A stretch of DNA of 64,000 nt from a virus. Under the pieces are notes generated by a model. The model worked only from the letters and a program-made list of their open reading frames with translations. It was not told the origin of the DNA and made no database searches. Where the stretch lies: positions 25,774 through 89,773 of IMG/VR virus record IMGVR_UViG_3300045141_000199; one strand, written 5' to 3'. Positions 57,142 to 64,000 of the stretch are shown here, piece by piece (position 1 is the stretch's first letter; every line of letters starts with the position of its first letter). Both the position numbers and the translations under genes were made by a program.

Positions 57142-57597
57142 CTATGCAGCGGCCGCCTTCTTTCTGACAACCGTCCACTCGTAGCTGCCGTCCACCTTCT
57201 CGGCGGAGCGCTCGACTAGGCCCTCGGCCTCCAAGCGGCGCAGTGCGTTGGAAACGCTCCCGCTGTTGAAATCGAGGCTTTTGGCGATCGATGACTGCCG
57301 GGCGCGACGGTGTTTGCGCAGGTACTTGTGTACCGCCTCTTCGCGCTCGGGGGAGACGCTGAGCGTCATCGGGTCGATCTCGGCCGGCTTGCCGTTGTTA
57401 TGGCCGTTGCTGCTCCCGTTCCCGGCTGGGGCCGGGCTGGCGCCTAGGGCTTCCTCGACCAGTGTGCGGCGATGTGCTAGGTCGGCCGCCCTCTGCTCGT
57501 ACTCCTGACGGATGAAGCCTTGTTCGGCGTCAAACGCCGCGATAGCCACCCTCAGCGGGCTTGTAATCGCGTCGGATACTGCGGTGTTGGTGTCCAT
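57142..57597 (-). CDS. Winged-helix (MarR/GntR-like) regulator
   Basis: This 151-residue protein has an N-terminal coiled coil, a Gly/Asn-rich linker and a C-terminal winged helix (ARQSSIAKSLDFNSGSVSNA, then LRRLEAEGLVERSAEK). It has AAAGGAAGC before its ATG and its own strong promoter, which fits an early regulator. Confidence 0.8.
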   Translation of the reverse strand: MDTNTAVSDAITSPLRVAIAAFDAEQGFIRQEYEQRAADLAHRRTLVEEALGASPAPAGNGSSNGHNNGKPAEIDPMTLSVSPEREEAVHKYLRKHRRARQSSIAKSLDFNSGSVSNALRRLEAEGLVERSAEKVDGSYEWTVVRKKAAAA

Positions 57598-58579: not shown

Positions 58580-58616
58580 GTCATGTTTCCCCTTTCGTTT
58601 ACCAAAACAAAAGAGC

Positions 58617-58639
58617 CACGCCGGAATCGAACCGGCGTG
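58617..58639 (-). promoter_or_regulatory. T-arm-like hairpin 1 of 11
   Basis: Stem CACGCCGG/CCGGCGTG (8 bp), coding-strand loop TTCGATT. It is 37 bases before the ATG of the 58579 gene. A full tRNA does not fit the 53 non-coding bases upstream. Confidence 0.85.
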
Positions 58640-58692
58640 ACCCTATCTGCGCTTCAGAACTGCGAATATGAAGGAACTAGCACCTACCAGTA

Positions 58693-58994
58693 TTAGTTGT
58701 GAACTAGTAAATATTTCGTATCACCTTTTTGATTCGGATTCTTGTCCTTTTCATCCAATTCGTGGATTTTTCGAAAATAGGCAACCCACCGAGAAGCAGT
58801 GAGGTTGAGAATGCAAGCTCCTCGCCACATGCCATTGCCAACATGACCTTCCAGGCCACGATGATTCGAGCGGTGCATGATGCTAGATCGCGAGCAAACT
58901 CTGCAACATCCTTTGCAAAGTCGATTAGGTATACCTTTCGTGTCTCGTTCCTTTCTATTACCTCGTTGGGCTGTACCAGCCTCAGGTGGCTCAT
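58693..58994 (-). pseudogene. Gene with apparent frame change in an A run
   Basis: From ATG 58994 (GGGAG upstream) the protein reads MSHLRLVQPNEVIERNETRK, VYLIDFAKDVAEFARDLASC and so on to LLLGGLPIFEK. At the GAAAAATCC run near 58758 the -1 frame gives IHELDEKDKNPNQKGDTKYL-LVHN and stops at 58693, while the zero frame becomes implausibly basic. One missing A, or slippage on AAAAA, would join them into one protein of about 101 residues. Confidence 0.5.
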
Positions 58995-59032
58995 GGCCTA
59001 CTCCCATGAGGTCGTTGGTCATTGCGCGCGAG

Positions 59033-59062
59033 AGCTTAGCAGCTTTAGGACATCCTCGTCAC
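59033..59062 (-). promoter_or_regulatory. Possible promoter
   Basis: The - strand has GTGACG, an 18-base spacer and TAAGCT preceded by TGC, similar to the promoter at 57630. It overlaps the end of the 59045 gene and would serve the genes to its left. Confidence 0.35.
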
Positions 59063-59260
59063 GTCGATGATCGTCTCGAACTTTTCTGAGGCTGTGTAGC
59101 CGCCAACTTCTAGCTTCTCGGCCGCCTCGGGAAACTCCTTAACGATCTCATCCGCCGCTATCTCAAGGTACTCATGCACCAGCGGATCGTCGCTCTTTGT
59201 TGTTACGGCCGCTCTGCCTAGCGCCTGTGCAATGCGCTGCAAGTCTCGCTTAGTAACCAT
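59045..59260 (-). CDS. Small helical protein
   Basis: This 71-residue protein (KRDLQRIAQALGRAAVTTKS; YLEIAADEIVKEFPEAAEKL) is helical. Its ATG overlaps the upstream stop by one base. Confidence 0.7.
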   Translation of the reverse strand: MVTKRDLQRIAQALGRAAVTTKSDDPLVHEYLEIAADEIVKEFPEAAEKLEVGGYTASEKFETIIDVTRMS

Positions 59261-59454
59261 TAGGTTTCGTCATTCTCCTGCTGTCCTCGGCGCATCTCAT
59301 AGCCCATCATGAGCGTAGCCCGGACGTTCCGAAAGCAATCACGGACGCCCGCGCAGGCCGACTCGTAATCGCCGGGAACGGTCTTGAGAGCCTGTTGCAT
59401 GGCCTCATCGGCGTCTTCCATGGCCGCTACGAATCCATCCCATTCGTTACTCAT
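59260..59454 (-). CDS. Small helical protein
   Basis: ATG at 59454 (MSNEWDGFVAAMEDADEAMQ) lies in the end of the upstream gene. The 64-residue protein is helical. Unknown. Confidence 0.7.
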   Translation of the reverse strand: MSNEWDGFVAAMEDADEAMQQALKTVPGDYESACAGVRDCFRNVRATLMMGYEMRRGQQENDET

Positions 59455-59626
59455 CTGATTTCGCCGCCACAACATGCGTTTTACCGTCATCTTCGGCAGC
59501 CTTCTTTGTGAACATCGGCACTCCACCAAAGCCGCAGCTACACAGCGCTTGATAGATCGGCCGCCGGTCCTCTTCTCGCGGCTCAAACGTCGTGCCGTTG
59601 TGAATGGTGATCTTGTGTGGTTCCAT
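59447..59626 (-). CDS. 59-residue protein with CSCGF
   Basis: ATAGGAGTGAGA precedes the ATG. The protein (MEPHKITIHNGTTFEPREED; CSCGFGGVPMFTKKAAEDDG) looks like a small zinc-binding or beta protein common in phages. Confidence 0.7.
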   Translation of the reverse strand: MEPHKITIHNGTTFEPREEDRRPIYQALCSCGFGGVPMFTKKAAEDDGKTHVVAAKSDE

Positions 59627-59634
59627 TCTCACTC

Positions 59635-59781
59635 CTATCGTAGTCCTCTTGCAAAAAGATCGTCTGCCATGGCTTCCCATGCGTCTTTATCGATTTTGTC
59701 AAGCTCGGGCCAGTCATCAACATCGATTCCTGACTCGGCCATCTTTGCCCGCCACAACTCATACAACCTGCGTCCGTTCAT
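59635..59781 (-). CDS. 48-residue acidic helical protein
   Basis: AAAGGAGTAGGA precedes the ATG. The protein (MNGRRLYELWRAKMAESGID; WPELDKIDKDAWEAMADDL) matches a small family found in many actinophages (W..L...AW..LA). Unknown. Confidence 0.75.
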   Translation of the reverse strand: MNGRRLYELWRAKMAESGIDVDDWPELDKIDKDAWEAMADDLFARGLR

Positions 59782-59804
59782 TCCTACTCCTTTCGTTGGA
59801 AAAC

Positions 59805-59831
59805 TAACAAAACAATATTATTGTTTTGTTA
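59805..59831 (-). promoter_or_regulatory. AT-rich perfect hairpin
   Basis: Thirteen-base arms (TAACAAAACAATA and complement) around one T. It begins in the stop codon of the 59829 gene and occupies the place where neighbours have T-arm-like hairpins. Confidence 0.85.
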
Positions 59832-60086
59832 CTGCGTGGCCTCTCCCAGCCGACCAAACTTGTCAACTGAGAAGATAAAGGTACCTTGCTTTTGCGTGTC
59901 GATGAACACTCTTACGCCCTCATCGTCATAGCGCATTCTGACTGGACCTACGTCGCGGTTAGGTCCAAAGCGTTTGTCGAAATCATCGACGGCAACAAGA
60001 ATGTCTTGTATCGTACAAATGTCTAGCGTTGCTTCAACTTCAACCTCGCCTTGTGTATCGATGTTTACATTTATGTCAGATATCAT
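59829..60086 (-). CDS. Small beta-rich protein
   Basis: The ATG follows the GAAAGGGTGAGA box. The 85-residue protein (MISDINVNIDTQGEVEVEAT; VRVFIDTQKQGTFIFSVDKF) has alternating strands. Unknown. Confidence 0.7.
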   Translation of the reverse strand: MISDINVNIDTQGEVEVEATLDICTIQDILVAVDDFDKRFGPNRDVGPVRMRYDDEGVRVFIDTQKQGTFIFSVDKFGRLGEATQ

Positions 60087-60118
60087 GTCTCACCCTTTCT
60101 GTTGTTTGCGAATGACTA

Positions 60119-60139
60119 CGCCCGGGATCGAACCGGGCG
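60119..60139 (-). promoter_or_regulatory. T-arm-like hairpin 2 of 11
   Basis: Stem CGCCCGG/CCGGGCG (7 bp), coding-strand loop TTCGATC. Five bases after a stop, 32 before the next ATG. Confidence 0.9.
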
Positions 60140-60144
60140 CAGCT

Positions 60145-60291
60145 CTATGCTATTCCAATCGGCCGGCCGTTGCGCCACAGCTTGATCGTGGCGTGTGGGT
60201 TGGCTGATTTGCAGGCTTCCAACAGCTTCATTGGATCGCCGTTAGTCCATCCATAGACAGTGTTCAGCTCGCCAAACGTAATCACTACCAT
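60145..60291 (-). CDS. 48-residue protein
   Basis: The protein (MVVITFGELNTVYGWTNGDP; HATIKLWRNGRPIGIA) overlaps the upstream stop by seven bases. Unknown. Confidence 0.65.
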   Translation of the reverse strand: MVVITFGELNTVYGWTNGDPMKLLEACKSANPHATIKLWRNGRPIGIA

Positions 60292-60407
60292 TTACGCTCG
60301 GCGGCTTTCTGTGCTTTGCGTTCTGCGGTTAGCCGACGCTCGCGCTCTTCTTGCCGGAAGTACGCGCGGGCGTGCAGCTCGGCCAATGCTTCTGTTCTAT
60401 TGGTCAT
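60285..60407 (-). CDS. 40-residue basic helical protein
   Basis: ATGA overlap with the upstream membrane peptide gene supports ATG 60407. The protein (MTNRTEALAELHARAYFRQE) is charged and helical. Confidence 0.6.
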   Translation of the reverse strand: MTNRTEALAELHARAYFRQEERERRLTAERKAQKAAERKW

Positions 60408-60508
60408 AGGTAATACCCATCCGATATGTAGTTGAGGAGGGCCAGCCCGCCCATGATAACGATCGCGCATCCTAGCGCGGTCATCCATTGGTTAAATGTC
60501 GGCCTCAA
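60404..60508 (-). CDS. 34-residue membrane peptide
   Basis: TTG at 60508 has AAGGA six bases upstream; ATG at 60484 is an alternative. One membrane segment (MTALGCAIVIMGGLALLNYI). Confidence 0.5.
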   Translation of the reverse strand: MRPTFNQWMTALGCAIVIMGGLALLNYISDGYYL

Positions 60509-60510
60509 CT

Positions 60511-60681
60511 TTAGTCCTTGCTCTGGAGATGGCGCCGAGCTTCCTTGATAGCTGTGGCTTGCTGCTCAATCTGCGCCTCGCTGAGTTGATCTTCGTAGGG
60601 CAGATTGCTCTCTAGGAGATCGAGCCCTTCGAGCAGCGTTTGACTAATTGCGTCGGTAAGTTCGACTGCGTAGACCTTCAT
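60511..60681 (-). CDS. 56-residue acidic helical protein
   Basis: The ATG follows GAAAGGGTGAAAAG. The protein (MKVYAVELTDAISQTLLEGL; SEAQIEQQATAIKEARRHLQ) is helical. Unknown. Confidence 0.7.
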   Translation of the reverse strand: MKVYAVELTDAISQTLLEGLDLLESNLPYEDQLSEAQIEQQATAIKEARRHLQSKD

Positions 60682-60719
60682 CTTTTCACCCTTTCTGTTT
60701 GCGCGTTATTGCGCAAGGC

Positions 60720-60745
60720 TACGCCCGGTATCGAAACCGGACGTA
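60720..60745 (-). promoter_or_regulatory. T-arm-like hairpin 3 of 11 (divergent)
   Basis: Stem TACG-x-CCGG(T) with one mismatch and a TTCGAT loop. It is the least regular copy and is 20 bases from the upstream stop. Confidence 0.7.
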
Positions 60746-60765
60746 ACCACGATAGCCTAGACGGA

Positions 60766-60876
60766 CTACCTGCCTGCGATCATGTCAATGATTGCAAACA
60801 AGATTGTGGCGACCGTGACAGCCGCAAAAATGAGCGAAGCTCCGAGTATGAATCCTGAAACGAAATCAATCAGCAC
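60766..60876 (-). CDS. 36-residue membrane peptide
   Basis: GTG start with AGGAG eight bases upstream, overlapping the upstream stop by 11 bases. One long hydrophobic stretch (GFILGASLIFAAVTVATILF). Confidence 0.6.
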   Translation of the reverse strand: MLIDFVSGFILGASLIFAAVTVATILFAIIDMIAGR

Positions 60877-61096
60877 TTGGCTTCTCCTCGCGTTTCCACG
60901 GTTTCTCCTCGTTTAGTGCGTTGACAATTCCCCGCGCGTTATCCTCTCCGATCGCGTAGGCGATAATGCCTCCTTGATCGTCATCAACTATTGCTTGCAG
61001 CCTTCCTCTATGCTTTTCTAGAGCAATTATCTCTCGCCGCAGGTCTTCTAGATTTGCGTCGTAAATGTCCATCTCATAGAAACGTGGCTCATCCAT
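60866..61096 (-). CDS. Small acidic protein
   Basis: This 76-residue protein (YEMDIYDANLEDLRREIIAL; GGIIAYAIGEDNARGIVNAL) follows a GAAAGGGTGAGA box. Unknown. Confidence 0.7.
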   Translation of the reverse strand: MDEPRFYEMDIYDANLEDLRREIIALEKHRGRLQAIVDDDQGGIIAYAIGEDNARGIVNALNEEKPWKREEKPSAD

Positions 61097-61127
61097 TATT
61101 TCTCACCCTTTCTGTTGGTTACCGCAA

Positions 61128-61158
61128 GGCCGTGCCCGGGATCGAACCGGGCGCGGCT
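61128..61158 (-). promoter_or_regulatory. T-arm-like hairpin 4 of 11
   Basis: Stem of up to 12 bp around CCCGG/CCGGG with G-U pairs, loop TTCGATC. One base after a stop, 31 before the next ATG. Confidence 0.9.
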
Positions 61159-61159
61159 G

Positions 61160-61519
61160 CTACATGTCGTAAGCATACCTCGTTTTGCTGTGGAAATCCT
61201 CGGCATTCTTATACGGGCCGACTATAGCCTCTGGATCGACCTTATAAAGCTCGGCAATCCACTTGCCATGCTCGTCATACGTGGCGGCCTTCTGGTAAGT
61301 GCCATCCTCGGCGCCATAGCTTCCACTGTTTCGCGGCCGCCTAGCCGTGCCTTTATAGTCCCTGCCAGCCTCGGCGGCGAGCCTAACCTCATAGCCTCTC
61401 GAACGCTTGCGCGAGCCATGCTGCGAGAAATCCTCAACCCAAACATCGGGAGACAGCTTTGCTGCCTTTGTGGCACCGTAGAAGTTCGCCATAATCAAAA
61501 CATCGCTATGAATCCTCAT
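61160..61519 (-). CDS. Small protein, unknown function
   Basis: This 119-residue protein (MANFYGATKAAKLSPDVWVE; YKVDPEAIVGPYKNAEDFHS) follows the cassette box. An in-frame ATG nine codons in is an alternative start. Confidence 0.7.
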   Translation of the reverse strand: MRIHSDVLIMANFYGATKAAKLSPDVWVEDFSQHGSRKRSRGYEVRLAAEAGRDYKGTARRPRNSGSYGAEDGTYQKAATYDEHGKWIAELYKVDPEAIVGPYKNAEDFHSKTRYAYDM

Positions 61520-61561
61520 CTTCTCACCCTTTCTGTTTAACGCCCGCTTTTGCGTGCGTAG

Positions 61562-61592
61562 GACTGCGCTAGGGATCGAACCTAGCGCGGTC
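61562..61592 (-). promoter_or_regulatory. T-arm-like hairpin 5 of 11
   Basis: Stem GACTGCGCTAGG with its partner (12 bp, one G-U), loop TTCGATC. The length equals a tRNA acceptor stem (7) plus T stem (5). Confidence 0.92.
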
Positions 61593-61593
61593 G

Positions 61594-61851
61594 TTATTCT
61601 TGACTAGCGGTTAGTCCGCCTGCGTTCAAGTAATCTATAACGAGCTTATACAGGCCATGCTCGCCCATCTTCCGCAGATATCTACGGCAGTCGTCATGGC
61701 TTGCCATATAACCCTTGCGGCGCTCGACGTTCAAGACCCATTGACCATCGATCATATCGCCATCGTATTCCCATGCGATGGCTCGACGGTCAGTGTCCGT
61801 TACTTCCACTGTGCCGATCGCTACCTTGATTTGTGCGCGTGCCTTTGGCAT
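61594..61851 (-). CDS. Small protein, unknown function
   Basis: This 85-residue protein (RAIAWEYDGDMIDGQWVLNV; HDDCRRYLRKMGEHGLYKLV) follows the cassette box. Unknown. Confidence 0.7.
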   Translation of the reverse strand: MPKARAQIKVAIGTVEVTDTDRRAIAWEYDGDMIDGQWVLNVERRKGYMASHDDCRRYLRKMGEHGLYKLVIDYLNAGGLTASQE

Positions 61852-61881
61852 TTCTCACCCTTTCTGTTTGGTAGTGCAGGA

Positions 61882-61908
61882 CTGCGCTAGGGATCGAACC
61901 TAGCGCAG
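61882..61908 (-). promoter_or_regulatory. T-arm-like hairpin 6 of 11
   Basis: Perfect 10-bp stem CTGCGCTAGG/CCTAGCGCAG, loop TTCGATC. Two bases after a stop, 30 before the next ATG. Confidence 0.93.
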
Positions 61909-61910
61909 CT

Positions 61911-62300
61911 CTAAAGATACAGCTTTCCATCGTCTCCCACGTAAAGCTCTGCTTCATTAAACATTTGTGCCTTGCGGCTTAGTTCATCGCCTACGGCGCC
62001 CGTGCCACGATCCCAAAATCCGGCGCCATGATAATTACGAGTCAACCAGAAATCATGGCCTGCGCGTTCCATATCGGCGAACTCGGGGTTAAGTCCCAAA
62101 TCCGCGCAAAAGCGCTCTAGCGCTGACTCATTCTCGGCCATAAATTGAAGACAGTCATTAGCCATTGCTTGCGCAGTATCGGATGCTAGATCGCGCGCGC
62201 TGTAATTCTGATCCAGTGGCGTTTCATCATCGGTTGACGCCCAAATAGCACATTCAGCATAGCCACTAATGAACTCTGCTATTTCCTCTGCGATATACAT
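61911..62300 (-). CDS. Conserved phage/plasmid protein, unknown function
   Basis: ATG at 62300 directly follows the box. The 129-residue acidic protein has HDFWLTRNYHGAGFWDRG and ELYVGDDGKLYL, a pattern known from a family spread over phages and plasmids. Function unknown. Confidence 0.8.
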   Translation of the reverse strand: MYIAEEIAEFISGYAECAIWASTDDETPLDQNYSARDLASDTAQAMANDCLQFMAENESALERFCADLGLNPEFADMERAGHDFWLTRNYHGAGFWDRGTGAVGDELSRKAQMFNEAELYVGDDGKLYL

Positions 62301-62329
62301 TCTCACCCTTTCTGTTTGGTAATGCAGGA

Positions 62330-62356
62330 CTGCGCTAGGGATCGAACCTAGCGCAG
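62330..62356 (-). promoter_or_regulatory. T-arm-like hairpin 7 of 11
   Basis: Perfect 10-bp stem identical to hairpin 6, loop TTCGATC. Four bases after a stop, 29 before ATG. Confidence 0.93.
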
Positions 62357-62360
62357 CTTG

Positions 62361-62450
62361 TCACATTCCGATCGCTCGGCGGACGTATGCGCGCACGACT
62401 AGCCGATAGAAAACATCGGCGCTGATTATGGAAACGGCCGCGATTCGCAT
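62361..62450 (-). CDS. 29-residue peptide
   Basis: TAATG overlap with the upstream gene. The peptide (MRIAAVSIISADVFYRLVVR) is hydrophobic and basic. Unknown. Confidence 0.5.
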   Translation of the reverse strand: MRIAAVSIISADVFYRLVVRAYVRRAIGM

Positions 62451-62569
62451 TAGCGCGTACTCGGAATGCGGAGCAGCTTCCCGCCCGTGGCCTCGGCGCG
62501 TTCGATGGCGCGTGCGATGTCGAGGGTTTCGAGCACCTTGCGCCCGTTCACTCTTACGATAAACCGCAT
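62450..62569 (-). CDS. 39-residue basic protein
   Basis: The ATG follows the box. The protein (MRFIVRVNGRKVLETLDIAR; AIERAEATGGKLLRIPSTR) resembles a tiny RNA- or DNA-binding fold. Confidence 0.65.
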   Translation of the reverse strand: MRFIVRVNGRKVLETLDIARAIERAEATGGKLLRIPSTR

Positions 62570-62593
62570 TGTTTCTCACCCTTTCTGTTTTAC

Positions 62594-62640
62594 TGCGCCA
62601 AGTGGCGCAAGGCTGCGCTAGGGATCGAACCTAGCGCAGC
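62594..62640 (-). promoter_or_regulatory. T-arm-like hairpin 8 of 11, with a second small hairpin
   Basis: Stem CTGCGCTAGG/CCTAGCGCAG plus flanking pairs (62612-62640), loop TTCGATC. A second hairpin TGCGCC-AAGT-GGCGCA (62594-62609) lies between it and the box. Confidence 0.9.
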
Positions 62641-62644
62641 TTTT

Positions 62645-62980
62645 TTAGATCGCGTCCTCTATGCGGCTTTTTGCGATCTCATTCCAATCAACCTCGGATA
62701 GTGCAGCGCCAAGCAAGTCTCCAACGATTCCGCTAGTAAGCGAATCGTCACAGAGGATTTCCGCTTCAACGTTAGCCTTCAAGTTCTCTGCTAGCGAATA
62801 AATCGCATTATCCGTCGCTTCCTCGGCGGTAATGCCCTCCTCGATTTCCTCTCGCACGTCCTCGACTGCGCTCGCCACCATCGATTCATAATGACGGCAC
62901 GTACCTTCTCCAGTGTAGTTTCCGTCAAGATACATGCTCATTACCCATGTTTCATAATTTGCGTGGCCGTTGTATGACAT
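62645..62980 (-). CDS. DUF7249-like conserved protein
   Basis: This 111-residue acidic protein starts MSYNGHANYETWVMSMYLDG, the NYETW start of a family common in phages, plasmids and archaea. The rest is helical. Function unknown. Confidence 0.8.
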   Translation of the reverse strand: MSYNGHANYETWVMSMYLDGNYTGEGTCRHYESMVASAVEDVREEIEEGITAEEATDNAIYSLAENLKANVEAEILCDDSLTSGIVGDLLGAALSEVDWNEIAKSRIEDAI

Positions 62981-63007
62981 CTCACCCTTTCTGTTGGTTT
63001 TGCAGGA

Positions 63008-63034
63008 CTGCGCTAGGGATCGAACCTAGCGCGG
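63008..63034 (-). promoter_or_regulatory. T-arm-like hairpin 9 of 11
   Basis: Stem GCGCTAGG/CCTAGCGC plus G-U and C-G, loop TTCGATC. Four bases after the octapeptide stop, 27 before ATG. Confidence 0.92.
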
Positions 63035-63038
63035 CCGT

Positions 63039-63065
63039 TTAGCTCCAGAAGTCTGTCTGACTCAT
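63039..63065 (-). CDS. Octapeptide MSQTDFWS in its own cassette
   Basis: ATG follows a GAAAGGGTGAGAA box; eight codons and TAA follow. Full cassette elements flank it: hairpin 10 upstream and hairpin 9 downstream. It could be a decayed gene, a leader, or a functional mini-peptide. Confidence 0.5.
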   Translation of the reverse strand: MSQTDFWS

Positions 63066-63095
63066 TTTCTCACCCTTTCGATTGGTTTACTAAGA

Positions 63096-63122
63096 CTGCG
63101 CTAGGGATCGAACCTAGCGCGG
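63096..63122 (-). promoter_or_regulatory. T-arm-like hairpin 10 of 11
   Basis: Stem GCGCTAGG/CCTAGCGC plus two more pairs, loop TTCGATC. Five bases after a stop, 30 before the octapeptide ATG. Confidence 0.92.
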
Positions 63123-63127
63123 CCGTT

Positions 63128-63511
63128 TTACTTGACCCTTTCCCGGGCAATCTGCTCGGAAGTGTCTGCAAGTTTTTGCTTGCGGGCACGAATATGCGCC
63201 ATTTGGCATTCATACTCAGCATCGGTAAGGGCGCCGTCCGATAGACCGTTCTCTATTCCGCCTTCCTCGTAACAGTCCGAACATTGACCCTCGCAGCCGA
63301 CGCTATCCCGGTCATACTCAGTGACCGGGAGGTTACGGCCGCAATACGGACATACGTAGGACAGCGCCCTGCATGCCTGCCATAGCTCGGCGCCCGTGAA
63401 CGGCGCCCGGCCGATTAGCTCTATCTGCGCGCCACTTGGTGTCATGGCCATAGTCAACGCTTCGTTGTGGTCCATGTTGCGGGCACAGGAAAACGCGATT
63501 TGGTTAAGCAT
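63128..63511 (-). CDS. Zinc-ribbon protein, first gene of the cassette array
   Basis: This 127-residue protein has CPYCGRNLPVTEYDRDSVGC and CSDCYEEGGIENGLSDG, a zinc ribbon with a Gly-rich turn known from many phage proteins, then a basic helix. It is the rightmost recognised gene of the leftward transcript. Confidence 0.8.
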   Translation of the reverse strand: MLNQIAFSCARNMDHNEALTMAMTPSGAQIELIGRAPFTGAELWQACRALSYVCPYCGRNLPVTEYDRDSVGCEGQCSDCYEEGGIENGLSDGALTDAEYECQMAHIRARKQKLADTSEQIARERVK

Positions 63512-63545
63512 TGCTCACCCTTTCTGTTTGGTTACTGCCATGCAC

Positions 63546-63567
63546 TGCCTAGGGATCGAACCTAGCA
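63546..63567 (-). promoter_or_regulatory. T-arm-like hairpin 11 of 11
   Basis: T stem CTAGG/CCTAG, loop TTCGATC. Local outer pairing is poor, but the next seven bases (63542-63548) pair with 63596-63602, giving a tRNA-like acceptor. It lies in the 5' leader 34 bases before the ATG. Confidence 0.85.
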
Positions 63568-64000
63568 TCACTCCCGATGGCGCCCGACTGCGCGCGCAGT
63601 ACGTATGAAAGGTATGAGTGAGATTTCCGCTTGGACTGGCCCTGTGCGCCCTTCTCTTCTATGTCCGCGCACCTTGACCCCTTGGTCGGCGGGTGATTCG
63701 TGCTGCTCACCCTTGCGACGGTCGGTCTATGGACTCCATCGCTGCCATGCAGCCTACCACGGATTTGACCCGTTCTCGGGCCAATTATCGCTATTTGCGG
63801 GAAATCTTTCGTGATCCGCGCTAAGGCCCCGTAATCGGGCGCTAAGCGCATCGGACTGCCTAGCGCTACCCATAGAGCGCCCGGCCATCGATGGCGGTTA
63901 GCGGCCGTTCTATGGCGCTCTAATGCGATGCCCGGCCGATGGTGCCTACGTTGCCAGGGTGCCCGGGCCAGATATTAGTCACTGTTACAGTGACTATTAC
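63568..64000. other. Non-coding right end
   Basis: No frame here has both a convincing protein and a ribosome binding site. Visible content: the probable 5' leader and promoter area of the cassette transcript (no clear -35/-10 pair found), short GC-rich inverted repeats, and a palindrome at the end. Confidence 0.6.
63976..63996. promoter_or_regulatory. Perfect 9-bp palindrome, possible operator
   Basis: TAGTCACTG-TTA-CAGTGACTA, flanked by further A/T. Symmetry suits a dimeric repressor; a related sequence lies before the 34759 gene. Confidence 0.5.

Follow-up and report, generated by a model that had tools for sequence, protein, structure and literature searches.

Background

Operons of small genes in which a stem-loop and a start-associated leader stand before the genes are known from mycobacteriophages of clusters K and M; such stem-loops with start-associated repeats have been described in phage operons since 2011 without a known function. 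Here we analyse a similar arrangement in a 64,000-nucleotide stretch of virus DNA (the window; bases 25774-89773 of the 89,773-base record IMGVR_UViG_3300045141_000199 of the IMG/VR database), where eleven hairpins resembling the T-arm of transfer RNA (tRNA) are found on the - strand at window positions 58613-63572. The T-arm form of these hairpins is new as far as Rfam and the openly licensed literature show.

In the cluster K phages a short repeat is present at the starts of some small genes, and about half of the copies have an inverted repeat just upstream (PMC3203893). The start-associated sequence (SAS) is the 13-bp GGGATAGGAGCCC, and the arms of the extended form (ESAS) are a conserved 17 bp with a spacer of 4-13 bp and no T-loop (PMC3203893), whereas in the window the leader is AACAGAAAGGGTGA and the inverted repeat is a T-arm, the layout being similar. 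The cluster M phages (Rey, Bongo, PegLeg, Estes and Aziz, with the repeats CR3/CR4) are likewise siphophages with genomes of 80 kb and more than 20 tRNA genes, and many genes of their right-end leftward operon are preceded by a stem-loop and a conserved purine-rich leader (PMC7953290). The CR3/CR4 repeats with their stem-loop appear to share the layout with the window and show no evident sequence likeness to it. In Rey, whose genome was examined, the stem-loops are longer and have other loops; no T-arm hairpin was found in it outside tRNA genes except at one site, which lies within the tRNA region.

With respect to the fold, the nearest described RNAs are the model hairpins of RNase P, which consist of acceptor stem, T-stem and T-loop and match the hairpins of the window in fold and, approximately, in their length of 12 bp (PMC11143913). 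The 12-bp length is thought to serve RNase P as a measuring device, replacement of the T-loop by a tetraloop lowered and shifted cleavage, and the contact with the RCCA end has been called essential for catalysis in E. coli and B. subtilis (PMC11143913). Phage M3 RNA, C4 RNA and T4 gene 32 mRNA are substrates other than tRNA (PMC11143913); the natural substrates of this kind are single RNAs, whereas the hairpins of the window, as candidate substrates, are repeated gene-border elements without an RCC end. An analogy may also be drawn to the tRNA punctuation of mitochondria, where a tRNA-type signal likewise stands directly behind the stop codons of a polycistronic message; mitochondria use whole tRNAs, whereas the array in the window has only the arm.

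T-arm-like hairpins in the window

A first-pass annotation of the window, made by a model from the letters alone, had reported eleven hairpins between genes on the - strand, and all of them were found. Its loop counts were confirmed as well: nine loops are TTCGATC, one is TTCGATT (loop start 58631) and one is altered (60736), the latter reading TTTCGATA, or TTCGAT if a T-A pair is counted. The further statement that the hairpins satisfy T-loop positions 53-61 stood for all but this variant, since the strict T-arm (G53-T54 T55 C56 R57 A58 N59 N60-C61 on a stem of at least 5 bp) fits 10 of the 11 and the hairpin at 60736 deviates. A scan of the whole window on both strands yielded 10 GTTCRANNC hairpins with at least 5 bp, compared with a mean of 0.27 and a maximum of 2 in 60 dinucleotide shuffles.

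Counted from the loop, pairs 1-5 are closed in 10 of 10 hairpins, pair 9 in 6, pair 11 in 9, pair 12 in 4 and pair 13 in 3. The pairing is thus a ruler of 11-12 bp; the acceptor and T stems of tRNA together have 12. The stems differ in sequence, and at 8 of the 12 stem pairs both partners have changed while pairing is preserved. The covariation score was 0.449 against 0.198 in shuffled sets (reached in none of 500) and at most 0.128 with slid pairings, the hairpin sequences being related, so that the shuffle figure is no probability. The T-arm mimicry proposed by the annotation is supported by the invariant G-TTCGAT-C, the co-varying stems and a helix of 11-12 bp like that of acceptor plus T stem.

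The helix of about 12 bp expected of an acceptor/T minihelix is present in the hairpins, several of which have internal mismatches: a C.A mismatch interrupts the stems at 63112, 63024, 61580 and 61146, and hairpin 1 (63560) has just 5 continuous bp. An unpaired 3' R73-C74-C75 is absent from the hairpins of the window, whose 3' ends read ATGG, TTAG, CTGC, TTGC, CTAC, ATTC and TTTT. The annotation had also excluded intrinsic terminators for want of a U tract. This is correct for ten hairpins, which have no U run; when the - strand was scored for intrinsic terminators, hairpin 11 (58631) was the only one of the eleven to score, and its U-rich tail is CTTTTGTTTTGG. We regard hairpin 11 as an outlier because of this terminator-like tail and because it has no AACAGAAAGGGTGA leader.

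Position of the hairpins and the leader

The hairpins occupy a nearly constant place. In 8 of the 11 the stem starts 0-3 nt behind a stop codon, and the next ATG follows the stem at 25-42 nt, so that the closeness to stop and start codons noted in the first-pass annotation holds in the main; the exceptions are the hairpin at 60736, which lies 17 nt from the stop, the one at 63560, which has no gene upstream, and the one at 58631, where the nearest possible stop overlaps the base of the stem. A point not stressed before is the leader AACAGAAAGGGTGA, which follows 10 of the 11 hairpins (in one case with two mismatches). The window contains 10 sites of AACAGAAAGGGTGA, all inside the array, against 0.36 expected. 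In its parts AGAAAGG and GGTGA one may see a likeness to the two halves of a Shine-Dalgarno sequence. In three units the T-arm hairpin is separated from the leader by a second small hairpin, which is variable.

All features of the array are on the - strand and are described here in the order of leftward reading. Hairpin 1 (63542-63572; TTCGATC) precedes the operon's first gene (63128-63511, 127 aa), with the leader at 63515-63528 and the ATG at 63511, 30 nt from the stem. Hairpin 2 (63094-63124; 8 bp, a C.A mismatch and 3 bp, TTCGATC) begins 3 nt past the stop of this gene and is followed by the leader with two mismatches (63070-63083) and by an open reading frame (ORF) of 8 codons, MSQTDFWS (63039-63065). 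Lying between hairpins 2 and 3, this ORF has its own hairpin-leader unit and may be what is left of a gene, or a coding leader. Behind it come hairpin 3 (63006-63036; TTCGATC), a leader (62982-62995) and a 111-aa gene with a weak DUF7249 match (62645-62980). Hairpin 4 (62611-62641; 11 bp, TTCGATC) has its leader at 62576-62589, with one of the second small hairpins in between. Hairpin 5 (62328-62358; 11 bp, TTCGATC) and the leader at 62303-62316 precede a 129-aa gene of phrog_1915 (61911-62300).

Directly at the stop of the latter (0 nt) starts hairpin 6 (61880-61910; 11 bp, TTCGATC), with the leader at 61855-61868 and an 85-aa gene (61594-61851). Hairpin 7 (61562-61592; TTCGATC), 1 nt past the stop, is separated by a second small hairpin from its leader (61524-61537), which precedes a 119-aa gene of phrog_18547 (61160-61519). 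At the same distance of 1 nt follows hairpin 8 (61128-61158; stem CCCGG/CCGGG, TTCGATC), then a leader (61103-61116) and a 76-aa gene (60866-61096). The variant hairpin 9 (60717-60748; loop TTTCGATA, or TTCGAT closed by T-A) also has a second small hairpin before its leader (60686-60699); the gene behind it encodes 56 aa (60511-60681). Hairpin 10 (60114-60144; 11 bp, TTCGATC) starts 0 nt past the stop, and the leader at 60090-60103 and an 85-aa gene (59829-60086) lie behind it. The outlier, hairpin 11 (58613-58643), has 13 bp with flanking A-T pairs and the loop TTCGATT.

Relation to tRNAs and to the nearest relatives

With a length of 31-32 nt the hairpins lack the cloverleaf and the anticodon arm of a tRNA gene, and ARAGORN found no tRNA gene in the window. 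The same program found 31 intact tRNA genes on the + strand at contig positions 8169-14064 (L030:8169-12961 and L031:41-1064), none of which encodes CCA. That the hairpins are copies of the 3' ends of the phage's own tRNAs was ruled out: the best match had 9 of 12 identities, and TTCGATC occurs in 0 of the 31 tRNAs. No Rfam family scored above its gathering score in the window, and a permissive search gave one chance match to a miRNA, on the + strand.

Searches of IMG/VR with the DNA polymerase and the terminase yielded three relatives: G001 (polymerase 75% identical, 33 tRNA genes), G003 (56%, 15 tRNA genes) and G005 (51%, 29 tRNA genes). The covariance-model search that the first-pass annotation had recommended was run on stretches of these relatives and gave only tRNA-type matches, and a T-arm scan of their whole contigs found sites only within the tRNA arrays. 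Gene 61911-62300 is the only gene of the array with a homologue in these relatives (48%, in G001), and no hairpin is present on either side of it there. As the nearest relatives have no such hairpins, the array is lineage-specific. Repeats first noticed in G001 and G003 proved to be tandem arrays at contig ends and not conserved hairpins. The contig ends concerned (start of L204 and end of L033 in G001; start of L034 and end of L210 in G003) lie within the same tandem repeat, with units of 24 bp and 12 bp, and since both contigs end inside the same repeat, these genomes are likely to be circular or permuted, the repeat being the place where they were cut.

Searching with the T-arm and the leader as a first pattern returned mostly tRNAs. 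When the leader was sought in other phages, 51 stretches were found to share AACAGAAAGGGTGAG, and their 438 kb, which were fetched for likeness to the leader, hold no T-arm element of at least 11 bp.

tRNA-like elements at gene borders in other genomes

When IMG/VR was scanned for the extended T-arm, unrelated contigs with T-arm hairpins before genes were obtained. The bulge-less form present in the window was found in L102, with four hairpins each followed by CACCACAACGCCTGGAGGCA and ATG, and in L098. A commoner form, termed type II, has no anticodon arm: its 5' acceptor strand is followed by a linker of some 8-24 nt and a T-arm, and the acceptor stem is then completed by a 3' strand. A fixed type-II pattern, GCCCN{12,30}CGGTTCGATTCCGNNNNNGGGC, matched 55 stretches of IMG/VR, compared with 0 for a control in which the loop letters alone were permuted. 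In the retrieved loci (some sites being counted twice) 26 of 59 matches lay in tRNAs, and 17 of the remainder passed a stricter structure test; in genomes, 60 of 82 matches were true tRNAs. The most elements were met in G027 (L283/L419/L420; 109 kb, no tRNA, a tyrosine integrase), where 11 of them stand together in one operon within about 16 kb (mean of the control, 0.12) and their loops vary in the fashion of T-loops (TTCGATC, TTCGATT, TTCGACT, TTCGAAT, TTCGAGT and TTCAATT).

The first-pass annotation had held that relatives without the TTCGATC loop would speak against its reading. G001, G003 and G005 do lack the hairpins, yet unrelated phages carry independent T-arm arrays at similar sites. 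These independent arrays, at the same kind of site and with tRNA-like variation of the loop, favour T-arm mimicry as such.

The type-II elements resemble tRNA in features for which the search did not ask. In a set of 41 elements, hand-picked by the analyst, so that the counts describe good examples and not a random sample, the linker contains GG in 41 of 41 and UGG in 29, compared with a mean of 14.7 and a maximum of 25 in 2000 rounds of linker shuffling. Several type-II linkers fold into a small arm with the loop UGGU. Behind the first 12 nt of the 3' strand, a purine stands at position 73 in 30 of these 41 elements and C at position 74 in 31. In tRNA the GG of the D-loop, to which the linker GG corresponds, contacts the T-loop, and the purine and C of the 3' end match the discriminator base and C74. 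Total stem length, determined on 84 elements of which none had been fetched by a 12-nt-spaced pattern, was 10, 11, 12, 13 and 14 bp in 13, 17, 27, 17 and 5 cases, the mode being 12 bp, whereas the permuted-loop counts fell steadily over the same lengths (71, 39, 30, 12 and 6). Type-II elements gave no match in Rfam. The hairpins of the window have neither a linker with UGG nor R73-C74; they share with type II the T-loop, the length of about 12 bp and the site at gene borders.

Elements of the form CCCACRCTGGY..CGGCGGTTCGATYCCGCCGGTGGG are found at gene borders of haloarchaea (L307, L436, L437, L438, L439 and L440), where the genes include VWA, beta-helix and camelysin-like genes. Halobacterium bonnevillei has four elements at successive gene borders, and among 147 genomes of the order the same motif stands ahead of a gene in three others. 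Because these haloarchaeal genes are not evidently viral, the tRNA-like class is not strictly a phage feature. On general knowledge, the bulged elements may be compared with the tRNA-like domain of transfer-messenger RNA (tmRNA), with which they have in common an acceptor stem, a D-loop-like GG, a T-arm and the lack of an anticodon arm; unlike tmRNA, they are 45-55 nt long, have no tag reading frame and no CCA, and do not match Rfam.

Two other arrangements were noticed. The layout AAGCCTAG..ctatccctttgggatag CTAGGTTCGATTCCTAG CTAGGCTT, with an acceptor-like stem, one inner hairpin and a T-arm, is repeated in related contigs (L105, L109, L114, L115, L118, L145, L154, L159, L175, L180 and others). 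In L247, L259, L264 and L279 a tRNA-like element that likewise encloses an inner hairpin, GCCCCGGACTGGCATCC..GGATGGCGGTTCGATTCCGCACCGGGGCACGACAGCA, recurs in near-identical form.

Possible functions of the hairpins

We tentatively favour the explanation that the hairpins are mimics of the tRNA elbow which host enzymes of tRNA maturation, RNase P first among them, would read to punctuate a polycistronic mRNA. Each hairpin would be a cis-acting element of a leftward polycistronic transcript, presumably a single mRNA, and would imitate the stacked acceptor/T-arm half of tRNA by means of a 7-nt T-loop closed by G-C on a helix of 11-12 bp. RNase P, as the likeliest reader, would bind the T-loop, measure about 12 bp and cleave where the 5' strand of the stem begins, at a predicted position 0-3 nt past the upstream gene's stop codon. 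The operon would thereby be converted to single-gene messages, each with a stable hairpin at its 5' end followed by its own ribosome-binding leader, in what could be called a small-scale counterpart of mitochondrial tRNA punctuation. Cleavage at the base of the stem is put first because the hairpins have the fold of RNase P substrates and lie between the end of one gene and the next gene. Reading by tRNA enzymes is also suggested by the T-loop, which a generic stabiliser would not need, and by position 74, which is T in all 10 hairpins and in 17 of the 31 tRNAs of the phage. In an extended form, to which we give some credence, the elements would make up an undescribed class of gene-border RNAs that mimic the tRNA elbow (acceptor stem and T-arm, with a UGG linker replacing the D-arm and no anticodon arm) in many unrelated phages and in haloarchaeal operons, the hairpins of the window being the simplest form, and host tRNA-maturation enzymes would cut the mRNA at these sites.

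Several observations weigh against cleavage by tRNA enzymes. The hairpins of the window lack the purine-73, C74 and C75 with which RNase P makes its RCCA contact; no more than 4 of 10 stems close pair 12, the continuous helix of hairpin 1 is limited to 5 pairs, and the loop of hairpin 9 is altered. Hairpin 1, standing before the first gene, has no pair of genes to separate. The nearest relatives do without hairpins, as does the shared gene 61911-62300 in G001. The extended form, moreover, presumes that the bulge-less hairpins (window, L102, L098) and the bulged elements share one function.

The strongest rival, only somewhat less likely in our estimate, is a translation-initiation module of hairpin and leader, in which the leader is kept unstructured and initiation is set apart from the ribosome that ends the upstream gene, the T-loop serving as a stable fold or as the site of a non-cleaving factor. 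The tie of 10 of the 11 hairpins to AACAGAAAGGGTGA and to an ATG 25-42 nt on, which includes the first gene with no gene upstream, agrees with such a module, as do the similar layout of the cluster K SAS/ESAS (PMC3203893) and the similar right-end leftward operon of phage Rey with long stem-loops followed by a conserved purine-rich leader (PMC7953290). It would leave unexplained why a T-loop consensus is kept on variable stems and why the elements of other phages have a tRNA-like linker and 3' end. In another reading the hairpins would bind host T-arm enzymes (the pseudouridine-55 synthase TruB, TrmA, or else EF-Tu) as a decoy, or modified bases would mark the mRNA for stability or for hiding from host defence. 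The sequence GUUCNANNC in a hairpin suffices for pseudouridylation by TruB/Pus4, and it is matched by all ten canonical hairpins. Whether cleavage or initiation is at work, such loops would probably be modified by TruB or TrmA. Modification may be a by-product, and a decoy needs no intergenic site beside a leader; we consider this explanation improbable.

Two further explanations, likewise improbable in our view, concern the DNA and the upstream gene. The hairpin-leader units might be repeated DNA for the gain, loss and shuffling of small genes by homologous recombination, with the RNA fold secondary: several copies are near-identical, the gene content of the array is hardly common to the relatives, and the 8-codon ORF that separates hairpins 2 and 3 has the appearance of a gene remnant. 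Double-sided stem changes with pairing kept would not be selected by recombination alone. Alternatively, the hairpins might be 3' stabilisers or weak terminators of the upstream gene, as the stop codon 0-3 nt before the stem in 8 of 11 and the U-rich tail of the outlier at 58631 would suggest; the U tract is missing from the other ten, the T-loop is not needed for this role, and terminators before every gene in mid-operon would silence the operon.

The T-loop-keeping hairpins and the independent tRNA-like border elements lead to a specific and testable idea, namely that host tRNA enzymes read them. If it is true, mRNA processing by RNase P, so far a matter of single cases, would become a systematic strategy of viruses, and prokaryotic viruses would have tRNA punctuation without tRNAs. 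The elements constitute a searchable RNA class that is absent from Rfam.

The virus and its genome

The proteins encoded in the window include a tail tube protein, a tape measure protein of 2071 aa, a Dit-like tail protein, a terminase, a family A DNA polymerase, an AEP-type primase and an SNF2 helicase; from this set the virus is a siphophage. No close named relative was found when the window and four element-bearing contigs were used as queries at the nucleotide and protein level. Upstream of hairpin 1, the last 420 or so bases at the contig end (63580-64000) are without a convincing gene, and no sigma-70-like promoter was found in them. A gene for a MarR-like winged-helix protein (57142-57597) lies within the same leftward stretch as the array.

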